From the NCBI RefSeq assembly GCF_900142525.1, contig NZ_FRBD01000004.1, positions 124,001 to 188,000 on the forward strand: 64,000 nt of DNA, in the 5' to 3' direction. Both the position numbers and the translations under genes were made by a program. Below are positions 44,019-47,851 of this stretch, in pieces. Positions within the stretch are counted from its first letter, which is position 1. Each line of letters begins with the position of its first letter. Below the pieces are notes generated by a model. That model did no database searches, was not told the DNA's origin, and saw only the letters and a program-made list of their open reading frames with translations. Source of the stretch: Xylanibacter ruminicola (lineage in GTDB: Bacteria > Bacteroidota > Bacteroidia > Bacteroidales > Bacteroidaceae).

Positions 44019-44243
44019 TCATCCATTTTTGTCTTTCTCGAAGGTGATGCCTTGGTAGAGGGCCTGGGTGCCCTCGTAGCTTTCTGGCAGGAAGTGGAGA
44101 CGGACACCTCGGATATGTTTCTTAGCTTTGAAATCCTTGAGATTGTCGCCTCTTTCAACGGTTTGATAATGTACTGCTACTGCCTTATATTTGCCATAAG
44201 TTGGTAGCGTAGGTTTGGTTTCCTGTTTGATTCTGTACTTCAT
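44019..44243 (-). CDS. Shortened HU-like DNA-binding protein
   Basis: A 74-residue protein. The start is the ATG at 44243; an upstream TTG is less likely. The N-terminus (MKYRIKQ..YGKYKAVAVHYQTV) and the C-terminus (KHIRGVRLHFLPESYEGTQALYQGITFEK) resemble the two ends of the roughly 150-residue HU-like proteins of Bacteroidetes. The helical middle and most of the DNA-binding arm are missing, as if internally deleted. It retains a good promoter (TTTG 44294-44297, 19-nt spacer, TATATTTG 44267-44274). HU-like genes commonly stand beside VirE-type primase genes in Bacteroides, which supports the reading. It may be a remnant or a mini-protein. Confidence 0.5.
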   Translation of the reverse strand: MKYRIKQETKPTLPTYGKYKAVAVHYQTVERGDNLKDFKAKKHIRGVRLHFLPESYEGTQALYQGITFEKDKNG

Positions 44244-44266
44244 AATACGTTTGCTCAAATTTTGTG

Positions 44267-44297
44267 CAAATATACAAATTTTCTAGAGAATAACAAA
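44267..44297 (-). promoter_or_regulatory. Promoter of the shortened HU-like gene
   Basis: Minus-strand -33 TTTG (44294-44297), 19-nt spacer and -7 TATATTTG (44267-44274). Confidence 0.55.
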
Positions 44298-44355
44298 CAT
44301 TTTCTTTAAAATAACTATTTTGATAATCAAAAATATTTCTCTGAATTCAAAATTT

Positions 44356-44820
44356 GCGAAACTACCTACATACCTACATAAATCTAAACTAACTATCTAA
44401 TTTTTAACGGTTTACAAATCAGCACACATACATTGAAACTACATATAACTACATTCTACCTACATAGTTTTGGCCGCTTACAGGCTATTAAGAAAGTAGA
44501 ACTGCCTGATTTGCAAGTTTTATCCTTAATACTCATTGTCAAATTCTCTCGAGAATTTTGCTACTACCTTACTTGTCAGTCATCAATAGTACGTTACTTA
44601 GCAAAAAATTCTCGAGAGAATTTTCTTACTATCCATAATAGTAGCGATTGTAGATACACGTATTTATTACTGAAACTACGTTATAGAGGTGTTTTGATGT
44701 AGGTAGAATGTAGTTATGTGTAGGTAAAATGTAGTTTCGATGTAGGTAAAAACTTTCCAAGATGCCTGTATATATGCGGTTTGCAGGTAAATTTATGTAG
44801 GTATGTAGGTAACTTAGCGA
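44356..44820. repeat. 460-bp imperfect inverted repeat with eight TACCTACA units
   Basis: This gene-free stretch is built around a centre near 44583. Matching arm pieces are 44364-44383 with 44791-44810 (20 of 20), 44435-44444 with 44729-44738 (10 of 10), 44445-44465 with 44697-44717 (21 of 21), and inner arms 44541-44563 with 44599-44624, which contain CTCGAG and differ by a few bases. The octamer TACCTACA occurs three times in the left arm (44363, 44371, 44457) and its complement TGTAGGTA five times in the right (44698, 44719, 44741, 44796, 44804). The variant AACTACAT recurs between them. It looks like an iteron cluster or large operator. Confidence 0.8.
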
Positions 44821-44839
44821 AAAAATGTCTCATATATGT

Positions 44840-44870
44840 TTTGCAGTTTAGCATTTTTGTATTACCTTTG
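44840..44870 (+). promoter_or_regulatory. Promoter of the primase gene
   Basis: -33 TTTG (44840-44843), 19-nt spacer, -7 TACCTTTG (44863-44870); the ATG is 30 bp downstream and the box is 20 bp beyond the right repeat arm. Confidence 0.6.
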
Positions 44871-44900: not shown

Positions 44901-45701
44901 ATGAATATTACATTACTTAAAAAAACAGGCTCTAAAGAAGTCATCAACCGTATTGAACTGGCAGAATTAGCTGCTGCGATTAAAAGCGGGGTGTTTAAGA
45001 ATGCTGTTACCAGAACTCGCGAGGTGTATCATCTGATGAATCCACACCGATTGGAGGATGGACAGATAGACACGCAATGGGAGGGCGGCATCAAGCTGCC
45101 CAGAATCTGCTTTGCAGCTGATTATCTTAAGCGCAAAGGTGAATGGGCAATGATTAGCTATAACGGCTTGGCGATGCTGGAGGTTAACGATCTGCAGACG
45201 TATGAGAAAGCTGTAGAAATCAGGGAATTGGCAAAGAAACTGCCTGAAACCATGATGTGTTTCCTGGGTGGATCGGGCCGTAGCGTAAAGATTGTGTGTC
45301 GAGGCCAGATGTTTGGAGAATACAAATCCGCTACAAAGGCACTACCTACTGAGCCAGATAACATCAAGCAGTTCCACCTCAATCTTTATAACACAGCCAG
45401 AAGGGCCTATCAGAATCAGTTTGGTTTTGACATCGAGTTTTTGGATCCTCGACTGGATCGCACCATCTATATGAGTGCCGATCCTGAGATGTGGTTCAAC
45501 CCAGAGGCGCGTCCGTTCTATGCCGACACAGAAAACCATGAGTTGCCTCAGCCTGTAGTCATCACTCGCGAGGAGGATCATCTGATGCCTGGTCGCACCG
45601 TTACTCGCACCTATCACCTGAACTGGACTTTTATCGTTGAGACCGTGATGGGGCACACTATTTCGAACTGCCCGATGAAAATAAAGAGGCCACTTTGCTG
45701 A
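44901..45701 (+). CDS. BT4734-like primase domain (N-terminal part of a frameshifted VirE-type protein)
   Basis: A 266-residue frame starting at the ATG after a good promoter. The body (about 1-215) resembles the BT4734-like N-terminal domain of Bacteroidetes VirE-type proteins: ICFAADYLKRKGEWAMISYNGL, then GGSGRSVKIVCRG, a strand-loop like that of primase folds, and FDIEFLDPRLDRTIYMS. From about residue 247 (after NWTFIVE) the frame loses coherence and ends PMKIKRPLC. In the -1 frame the sequence continues as DRDGAHYFELPDENKEA directly into the VirE helicase frame. The two frames therefore look like one gene broken by a single-base loss near 45640. Confidence 0.7.
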   Translation: MNITLLKKTGSKEVINRIELAELAAAIKSGVFKNAVTRTREVYHLMNPHRLEDGQIDTQWEGGIKLPRICFAADYLKRKGEWAMISYNGLAMLEVNDLQTYEKAVEIRELAKKLPETMMCFLGGSGRSVKIVCRGQMFGEYKSATKALPTEPDNIKQFHLNLYNTARRAYQNQFGFDIEFLDPRLDRTIYMSADPEMWFNPEARPFYADTENHELPQPVVITREEDHLMPGRTVTRTYHLNWTFIVETVMGHTISNCPMKIKRPLC

Positions 45702-47035
45702 TGCAGATAGCCTCGATGTGTCTCGACCAGGGTATTCCCCAAGCCCATGCCAAGGGGTTGACGTTGCTGCATCCCGTGCTTAATCGCGACAAGATGCTGG
45801 TAGAAAAAATCTTCCAATGCGTTTACAGCGTATTGGAGCAGGAGGACTATTGCGAAAAGCATAAGTTCCATCCGCTAAAAAGCGTTCCTGATGACACTAT
45901 CCAGGCGATGAAGACAGAGATATTCTTGAACTCCAACTTCGATATGCGCAAGAATCTGTTGACAGGTGTGGCTGAATATCGCGAAAAATTCAGCGACGAC
46001 CAGCGATTCAAGCCACTTACTGACGAGGTGCGCAACGATATGACGCTGAGAGCCACCGAGTTAGGCCTGAAAGCGTGGGACAGAAACGTGAACCGTTTTA
46101 TCGATTCAACCCGTATCGAGCAATTCGATCCTGTGAACTCCTGGCTCGACAAGCTGCCTGCTTGGGACGGGCACGACTATATCGCTGAGCTGGCAGCCCG
46201 CGTACCAACCTCTCAGCCCCATTGGCCTAAGTATCTGAAGTTCTGGTTGACAGGTATGGTTGGCCAATGGCGCGAGAGTGATAAGCAGTTGACAGGCAAT
46301 GCGTTAACGCCACTTTTGATTGGTCGTCAAGGTTGCGGAAAGACGCGATTCTGCAAGATTATCCTGCCCCCAGAACTACGCGATTATTATAACGACAAAC
46401 TGAACTTCAAGAACGAGTTCGACTTGAACATCGCCCTGACCAGCTTTGCGCTCATCAATATCGACGAGTTTGATAAGACCACCAACTCTCAGCAGATTGT
46501 GCTGAAATACCTATTGTCGTCAAGCGATGTAAAGTTCCGTCCACCATACGGTAAGACCATCAAACTCTATCGCCGCTATACCTCTTTCATTGGTACTACC
46601 AATCAGTTGAAACCACTTGTGGATCCTACTGGTTCGCGACGATTCGTATGCGTTGGAGTTAATGGCAACATCAACTTCGAGGACAACCTCTACCATGAGC
46701 AACTCTTTGCCCAAGCCCTACACCTATTTAATAGTGGCGAACGATTCTGGCTGAACGACGATGAAATCAAGACGCTGATAGCCGAAAACGAGCCCTATCA
46801 GCACCTGAACGACTTGGTAGAGATGATTGGCGAGACCTTCAGCGCTCCCAAGGATAATGAATCAGGCAAGTGGTGGAGCTTAGGCGACATCAGCGCCCTA
46901 CTCGCCTCGCGCTATCCCAACTTCGACTCAGAAACCCCATTCAAGAAAATTGGCAACGCCCTCAACGACATCCAGTTCAATTTCAAGAGCAAGCGCACCA
47001 CCAAGCACATGGAGTACTGGCTGATGGAGAAATAA
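45695..47035 (+). CDS. VirE-domain P-loop helicase/ATPase (C-terminal part of the frameshifted protein)
   Basis: A 446-residue frame counted from the first ATG; coherent coding begins earlier, at 45641, just after an in-frame TGA at 45638. It carries a VirE-type (phage primase/helicase-like) ATPase: Walker A GRQGCGKT (210-217), Walker B FALINIDEFD, a sensor-like SFIGTTNQLKPL and the arginine finger region DPTGSRRF. Such domains are normally fused to the BT4734-like primase domain in one protein of about 700-800 residues, the summed length here. It overlaps the upstream frame by 7 bp. It could be expressed by frameshifting or be a recently broken gene. Confidence 0.75.
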   Translation: MLMQIASMCLDQGIPQAHAKGLTLLHPVLNRDKMLVEKIFQCVYSVLEQEDYCEKHKFHPLKSVPDDTIQAMKTEIFLNSNFDMRKNLLTGVAEYREKFSDDQRFKPLTDEVRNDMTLRATELGLKAWDRNVNRFIDSTRIEQFDPVNSWLDKLPAWDGHDYIAELAARVPTSQPHWPKYLKFWLTGMVGQWRESDKQLTGNALTPLLIGRQGCGKTRFCKIILPPELRDYYNDKLNFKNEFDLNIALTSFALINIDEFDKTTNSQQIVLKYLLSSSDVKFRPPYGKTIKLYRRYTSFIGTTNQLKPLVDPTGSRRFVCVGVNGNINFEDNLYHEQLFAQALHLFNSGERFWLNDDEIKTLIAENEPYQHLNDLVEMIGETFSAPKDNESGKWWSLGDISALLASRYPNFDSETPFKKIGNALNDIQFNFKSKRTTKHMEYWLMEK

Positions 47036-47221: not shown

Positions 47222-47851
47222 GTGGACGATAAGCGTTATATCCAAAGCCTCATTAAAGAGGGTGAGCATCAGCAGCAGGACTTCAAGTATCGAGTATCCA
47301 ATGCAATAAAGTTGGCCAAATCGGTATCGGCATTTGCCAATACTGATGGGGGACGACTGCTGATTGGTGTTCGCGACGATGGACACATGTCTGGCGTTCG
47401 CGATGAGGAGGAAATCTACATGATGCACCAGGCAGCTTATCGTTACTGTCGCCCACAAGCAAGTATCAAATTTGATACCTATCATGTTGAGGGCAGAACC
47501 ATTGTTATTGCTACCGTTCCTCCCTCAGATAAACGCCCTATCTGCGCTATCGATGATGAAGGCCACCAGCGTGCTTATATCCGTATTGCTGACGAGAACA
47601 TCGTGGCTTCTCCTGTACACCTTGCTATCTGGCGGGAGGCCCAAAAGCCTCAAGGCGCTATGATGACCTACACGGATACCGTCCGCAAGCTTATCGATAC
47701 CTTGCAAAATCAACAGATCACTCTGAACCAAGTAGTGCGACTTTCAAAAATCCCTCGTCATAAGGTCATTACCCTTCTGGCTCGCCTCATCCGCTTCCAC
47801 GTTGCCAAATGGGAATACATCAATCAACAATTCCTGTTTAGCAATGATTAA
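47222..47851 (+). CDS. AlbA_2 (Schlafen-type) domain protein
   Basis: A 209-residue cytosolic protein starting at GTG 47222, chosen because it lies just downstream of a -7 box. The N-terminal 125 residues form an AlbA_2/Schlafen-like domain: EGEHQQQDFKYRV, then SVSAFANTDGGRLLIGVRDDG, the conserved core often annotated as ATP-binding. The C-terminal 60 residues look like a winged helix (ITLNQVVRLSKIPRHKVITLLARLIRF). Proteins of this build act as DNA- or RNA-binding regulators and are common near mobile and defence genes. Here it follows the VirE-type gene by 187 bp on the same strand. Confidence 0.8.
   Translation: MDDKRYIQSLIKEGEHQQQDFKYRVSNAIKLAKSVSAFANTDGGRLLIGVRDDGHMSGVRDEEEIYMMHQAAYRYCRPQASIKFDTYHVEGRTIVIATVPPSDKRPICAIDDEGHQRAYIRIADENIVASPVHLAIWREAQKPQGAMMTYTDTVRKLIDTLQNQQITLNQVVRLSKIPRHKVITLLARLIRFHVAKWEYINQQFLFSND

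Follow-up and report, generated by a model that had tools for sequence, protein, structure and literature searches.

What is the long inverted repeat that separates an HU-like gene from a primase gene in Xylanibacter ruminicola: a replication origin, an operator, a mobile repeat or a fold? The DNA analyzed here, referred to as the window, is a 64,000-nucleotide stretch of contig NZ_FRBD01000004.1 (positions 124,001 to 188,000). The first-pass annotation, made from the letters of the window, had claimed an inverted repeat, and self-alignment and shuffling place it far above chance. Aligned to its own reverse complement, the imperfect palindrome at 44353–44821 (assigned to neither strand) gave 486 columns at 59% identity around a centre at 44587, and its palindrome score of 54 compares with a mean of 14.1 and a maximum of 22 in 40 dinucleotide shuffles. 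Paired arms match over 34 nt at 85% (44353–44386 with 44788–44821), over 37 nt at 89% (44429–44465 with 44697–44733) and, for the inner pair, over 19 nt at 100% (44541–44559 with 44605–44623). The eight copies of TACCTACA described earlier, three one way and five the other, were recovered as three forward and five reverse copies within 44363–44811; the whole window holds 13 copies compared with 1.47 expected, and at least 13 were reached in 0 of 100 shuffles.

These iterons are arranged as a left outer pair with 8-bp spacing (44363–44378, plus strand), a left inner block with 10/11-bp spacing and one degenerate iteron (44429–44465, plus strand), a right inner block with 10/11-bp spacing (44697–44748, minus strand) and a right outer pair with 8-bp spacing (44796–44811, minus strand). 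Between the inner blocks sits a 79-bp core (44543–44621, neither strand) containing two ATTCTCnnGAGAAT palindromes 65 bp apart. At the window's palindrome, a 501-bp stretch has a GC content of 32%. A plasmid search with DNA from around the repeat gave no match.

The identities proposed for the two flanking genes held up. The HU-like gene (44019–44258, minus strand; its relatives put the likely ATG start at 44243) had been called a remnant; its 79 amino acids align over approximately 130 residues of its relatives with an internal gap, and it is internally deleted relative to these approximately 130-aa proteins. The primase gene encodes PF08800 followed by PF05272, though split over two frames. 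The first frame (44901–45701, plus strand) holds the BT4734-like N-terminal (AEP primase) domain (PF08800, E 5.6e-38), which places the protein among the BT4734-like AEP primases and agrees with its NCBI name, "BT4734/BF3469 family protein". The second (45695–47035, plus strand) holds the VapE helicase and C-terminal domain (PF05272, E 4.8e-32; PF12990, bits below the cut-off). The frame changes near 45650, and the primase of close relatives is a single frame of approximately 710–780 aa. Because the primase is frameshifted and the HU-like gene internally deleted, the window module looks decayed or inactive, with its palindrome kept.

The available part of PMC5862659 links the BT4734-like family to no AEP clade. 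By eye, the consensus of the primase alignment reads L-E-V-N and S-V-K (residues ~90–96 and ~128–130 of one relative, L104) at the places where one might look for AEP motifs I (DhD/E) and II (sxH); E94, N96, S128 and K130 are invariant in the 36 aligned sequences, and the AEP primase domain may be degenerate. A Schlafen/AlbA_2 gene (47222–47851, plus strand; PF04326) lies on the primase side in the window and on the HU side in genomes G131 and G279 (92% protein identity), which points to a local inversion.

The first-pass annotation had suggested looking beside other VirE/BT4734 genes, and palindromes were found upstream of most of those examined. The best 80 of 307 relatives were fetched, mostly Prevotella-type metagenome assemblies and Xylanibacter, and 76 had 650 bp of upstream sequence; the other four had too little upstream DNA. 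The palindrome score was above the 99th percentile of controls in 59 of 76 loci and above the control maximum in 27, with 17 not above the 99th percentile, and its median was 44.5 compared with 13 for the upstream regions of 235 other genes in these loci. A first survey had sought the palindrome beside 24 primase genes with approximately 38–88% N-terminal identity; 23 of 24 palindromes, primase-linked and solo and including the window's, beat all 40 of their own shuffles (the exception was L076). Palindromic upstream stretches, some with repeated words, were also present in six Bacteroides, Parabacteroides and faecal-contig relatives (no matched control). The window palindrome is one member of a large family, not an isolated feature, and by these comparisons it is the cis-site of a Prevotella module composed of (HU-like gene)-palindrome-BT4734/VapE primase-helicase.

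Layout was compared in 14 palindromes of the CTACAT class, namely the window and 13 relatives, the latter being those among 19 whose outer pairs were caught by a regular expression. The outer pair has 8-bp spacing, with one of 28 pairs degenerate (L110), and was partly a selection criterion because the relatives were picked for showing one. Core spacing played no part in the selection, and two TTCTC..GAGAA sites 65 bp apart were found in 14 of 14. Inner blocks mostly have 10/11-bp spacing and lie 54–56 bp from the outer pair, or 63–67 bp where a site is absent. With a pattern that permitted 73–85 bp, the 103 distinct cores in the fetched loci measured 79 bp in 90 cases, 80 bp in 11 and 78 bp in two. 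ATTCTC..GAGAAT occurs at 2.09/kb upstream of the primase compared with 0.0051/kb elsewhere in the same loci. The core motif is present at least once in 58 and at least twice in 45 of 76 loci, and it is missing from some lineages. It accompanies the HU-like gene, occurring in 37 of 38 loci with HU versus 24 of 42 without (hand count; Fisher p 1.3e-5); with a minimum of 1,200 bp of upstream sequence, the counts are 37 of 38 versus 21 of 35. The p values serve as guides here because related loci share ancestry. At one place (G242:C134:57283-57426), three successive core sites follow at 65-bp steps as a tandem of a 65-bp unit.

The core motif, where present, is nearly constant, and the iteron word varies by lineage. 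Word similarity followed protein identity with a Spearman coefficient of 0.70 (75 of 80 loci). When the other regions were taken into account, the partial correlation with the word was highest for C-terminal residues 641–704 (0.347, p 0.001), compared with 0.204 for the N terminus, 0.188 for the AEP part and −0.106 for the helicase; the correlation is no proof of contact, because word and protein share ancestry and the N terminus and AEP part correlate too. The model of residues 641–704 has a strand-helix-helix-strand-strand order (block pLDDT 75–89; the helicase core was poorly predicted), which we read as a winged helix.

The structure alignment covered 36 of the 80 loci. A profile run against PDB sequences had 7pds as its sole match at E ≤ 0.01 (E 5.6e-12), and Foldseek ranked the chains of 7pds, entitled "PriRep1 with dsDNA", first (E 1.6e-6) with low TM values of 0.2–0.36. 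By these matches the VapE helicase is homologous to PriRep1, an initiator-type primase-helicase, which we take to be a SaPI protein. SaPI Rep and Cch2 recognize iteron origins via the C terminus, according to the available part of PMC7581432, and in the accessible portion of PMC6092414 every mapped E. coli PICI origin has an AT-rich region with an iteron set on either side. It is mainly because of the homology to PriRep1, the binding of iteron origins by SaPI Rep and Cch2 and the two-set form of PICI origins that we infer the palindrome is likely to be an origin.

The module often stands alone. Among the 90 closest pairs in a pairwise comparison of the 80 loci, many of those listed have only HU-palindrome-primase or palindrome-primase in common and little else; homology often ends a few bases past the primase stop and, upstream, near the HU end or the outer iteron pair. 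Other pairs also share neighbours, including LOG, dnaK-side genes and longer stretches. HU is the widest companion, in 26 loci by clustering and 38 by tblastn, and it alone recurs widely among the 28 largest neighbour clusters of the 80 loci. The window sequence 44134–47037 matches the modules of G131, G279 and G153 at 80–81%. Ten of the 11 genomes searched have the potassium-channel gene that adjoins the window module, and module sequence followed it in 0 of 10 fetched stretches (in G018, only approximately 165 bp follow). In G088, a Schlafen/AlbA_2 relative (70%) lies approximately 1.8 kb beyond this gene.

At six loci (L112, L115, L132, L138, L163 and L166), the primase stop is followed, by eye, by only the last dnaK codons (TTACTT.ACCTCCTC...) and then other DNA, and dnaK itself comes after the module in L111, L120, L129, L134, L137, L139 and L171. 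At some loci the 3′ end of dnaK may serve for attachment; the dnaK side as the insertion site was set aside, its surroundings being shuffled.

Palindromes also occur without genes, and we refer to these copies as solos. The arm model matched at E ≤ 0.01 in 35 of 100 genomes. Among the matches listed, paired inverted arms, counted when at least one arm reached E ≤ 1e-9, numbered at least 17 without an adjoining primase match and at least seven with one. Copy numbers summed by hand come to 213 for the core pattern, spread over 58 of the 299 genus genomes and including 30 in G034, 22 in G151 and 15 in G108, and its reversed control had no match in the 299 genus genomes; a class-wide sample contained the core in one of 395, the window's own genome. 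Judged on ORF maps, these are dispersed inverted-repeat units outside genes. Viral contigs searched by protein alignment yielded 23 pattern stretches with no relative among them, and the core pattern matched one 4.5-kb viral-labelled contig (L337) that carries a full palindrome and no primase match.

Other forms of repeat were encountered. One solo each from G034 and G108 (L338 and L343) looks one-armed, with the core, one inner block and an outer pair, and the words GTCACCC and GTCAACC in the two sequences read. G071 and G080 (L234–L249), genomes with no or a weak primase match, contain many closely spaced inverted arm pairs without the core pattern; the pairs listed span approximately 200–430 bp. 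The repeats of G024 (5.2-kb near-identical units and approximately 800-bp repeats) were set aside as a different class; the 5.2-kb unit occupies four places (L214–L217, approximately 94–95% identity, one interrupted). Named by sight, its genes are one of VapE type and two that encode 621 aa and 357/383 aa, and some copies have a peptidase-like gene next to them.

The words of the solos were compared with those of the primase palindromes resident in the same genomes. Five cores are present in the genome that the window comes from. One is the window's, another adjoins a second primase gene (C32) and the remaining three belong to solos; each of these solos has the word ACACTAC, as does the palindrome of the C32 primase, and not the window's TACCTACA. 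Over 10 genomes, the similarity of solo words to the resident primase palindrome was 0.460 compared with 0.242 under random assignment (p 0.00035), in a test that used the fetched primase palindromes only (12 genomes), not every primase copy per genome. Half of the solos (12 of 24) were closest to their own resident palindrome among the 12 genomes compared. No word match was seen in three of 10 genomes (G073, G018 and G099, for the palindrome tested there), G034 was weak (0.11–0.17) and G098, with three solos, had no primase match; one solo site is common to G131 and G279, which are closely related. Of the 24 genomes that had a primase match at E ≤ 1e-30, 18 contained the core, compared with three of the 76 others (first 100 genomes; hand count), a contrast that is partly built in because cores beside the gene are included. 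By their words, solo palindromes are related to primase genes above chance, with exceptions. The first-pass annotation had set against its own proposal a dispersed repeat unrelated to primase genes: dispersed gene-less copies do exist, but they are related to those genes.

Some solos have the form of discrete units. In five of 13 same-genome solo pairs, the copies are alike as whole palindromes (83% in G073, 90% in G088 and 88–92% in G098), and their homology stops within approximately 30 bp of the outer iterons, with unrelated contexts in some; seven pairs match only partly. In the G032 pair (L080 and L081, on C63 and C78), the solos are approximately 1.05–1.09 kb and 93% identical over 1,398 bp, beyond the palindrome by up to +231 bp. 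G153 is without the solo common to G131 and G279, and its sequence past the edge is unrelated. Both flanks of a G088 solo site are kept in four of five relatives fetched, with different sequence between them, and G009 has the left flank only. These solo-site comparisons and that of the potassium-channel gene show that contexts change between genomes; no clean empty site or before/after pair was found among the sites compared.

These comparisons make a strong sequence-based case for a conserved, protein-matched, dispersed initiation-type site. Our preferred reading, with a probability of roughly one-half, is that the palindrome is an iteron initiation site for the BT4734/VapE primase-helicase that is also an operator and that the gene-less copies are non-autonomous. 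The first-pass annotation had likened the layout to an integrated element's replication origin or to a large operator. This is the best-supported class, given the 59 of 76 loci, the word that tracks the protein and the PriRep1 homology. No integrase-bearing element was recognized by clustering and sight.

The array could instead be an operator and nothing else, a repressor or activator site for the HU-like and primase genes, with solos as extra operators or decoys. The Bacteroidetes-type promoter consensus is TTTG-N19-TAnnTTTG, and the window array lies between two divergent promoter-like sites of this type, one for the HU-like gene (44267–44297, minus strand) and one for the primase gene (44840–44870, plus strand). 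A third core-like site (approximately 44278–44291) is located inside the former, between both promoter boxes, as in several relatives. With up to three mismatches allowed, 28 of 38 loci have a core-like site in the 110 bp preceding HU, compared with 0 of 38 shuffles, and one of 80 has such a site in the 120 bp preceding the primase; the promoter pattern was recognized upstream of HU in 14 of 38 loci and of the primase in 40 of 80. However, approximately 500 bp with about ten iterons exceeds what the control of two genes needs, and regulation alone does not explain why certain solos occur as discrete units in several copies, with identical ends but unrelated surroundings; we consider a pure operator unlikely.

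The way homology stops near the outer iterons in the five alike pairs (G073, G088 and G098) would also suit transposon ends, with MITE-like solos whose arms are read by a transposase and a primase-helicase that is part of the machine or a passenger. This too seems improbable, because the module genes flank the palindrome instead of lying between its arms, inspection of the ends of 15 solos by eye revealed no target-site duplication and no integrase or transposase was recognized, by sight, as recurring beside the module in the 28 largest neighbour clusters (80 loci, flanks of up to 5 kb).

The decaying window module with its retained palindrome, and a palindrome piece retained with a C-terminal gene fragment in G291, are what would be expected if each solo were the remainder of a full module with decayed genes. 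Yet primase or HU protein traces at E 1e-3 were found in 0 of 39 solo loci. About half of the 39 were picked for having none, whereas the other 19 (L338–L356) were picked by core match, excluding core places known beside a primase. As units without genes, three copies in G098 resemble one another, and so do two in G088. Relics are, in our judgement, a distinctly poor candidate as the general origin of solos.

The iterons of the two arms are 97.1% alike, whereas spacers are 42.1% alike within a palindrome versus 38.8% between unrelated palindromes; because the spacers hardly exceed the unrelated level, it is the binding sites and distances that are kept, not base pairing. On this spacer comparison a structured RNA or DNA hairpin (terminator, cruciform or non-coding RNA), which the long inverted repeat itself would suggest, was rejected as highly implausible.

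Under the preferred reading of an initiation site with operator function, the palindrome would be an iteron-based origin and operator between the divergent HU-like and primase promoters and would autoregulate. The winged-helix-like C-terminal domain would read the iterons, and hexamers would load on the two arms in mirror image, so that the DNA between them would open at the 79-bp core or close to it. The ATTCTCTAGAGAAT sites, both those of the core and the one next to the HU promoter, would be read by a second factor, a constant one that may be the HU-like protein. The gene-less copies would be non-autonomous derivatives dependent on a resident primase-helicase. A further-reaching and more doubtful possibility is that they represent a new kind of mobile DNA, in which gene-less initiation palindromes of approximately 0.5 kb multiply as the resident primase-helicase starts copying in trans. 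Word and C-terminal reader would co-evolve into separate specificities, insertion would involve no integrase or transposase and the HU-like protein would fold the two core sites 65 bp apart.

Several known systems resemble parts of this arrangement. The phage P4 alpha protein is a primase-helicase-initiator with octameric repeats in two sites (ori/crr), similar to the combination described here, and P4 is a phage satellite; we know of no dispersed gene-less copies for it. The SaPI/PICI pri-rep-ori systems (PriRep1, PDB: 7pds; Cch2 of SCCmec) share a homologous helicase, the primase-helicase fusion and, in the available parts of PMC6092414 and PMC7581432, an iteron site adjoining the gene with two iteron sets, here inverted. 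In contrast to the PICI origin, located 3′ of rep in the accessible portion of PMC6092414, the palindrome lies 5′ of the gene between divergent promoters. It also differs from SaPI/PICI in having two extra palindromic core sites that are always 65 bp apart and dispersed gene-less chromosomal copies, and beside the module no integrase, att or packaging genes were recognized. REPIN/RAYT systems, in the part of PMC3116915 available, likewise consist of inverted-repeat units scattered outside genes, with the gene of a related protein close by, and here too the repeat matches the resident partner (p 0.00035 over 10 genomes, three unmatched and one weak). Unlike REPINs, the units here are approximately 0.5 kb rather than short hairpins, their symmetry is one of binding sites and the partner is a primase-helicase, not a Y1 (RAYT) transposase.

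BT4734/VapE genes are multi-copy in many of the genomes searched. In the titles and abstract openings covered by our literature search, whose scope left out preprints and most subscription papers, nothing was found on a cis-site or mobility of the BT4734 family, nor a role assigned to BT4734/VapE genes. A cis-site with a readable word would link these genes to origin-type initiation. If gene-less copies do move via the primase-helicase, this would be a route of spread through genomes that needs no known transposase, and the word-to-protein pairs from dozens of loci are naturally occurring data from which a DNA recognition code might be derived.
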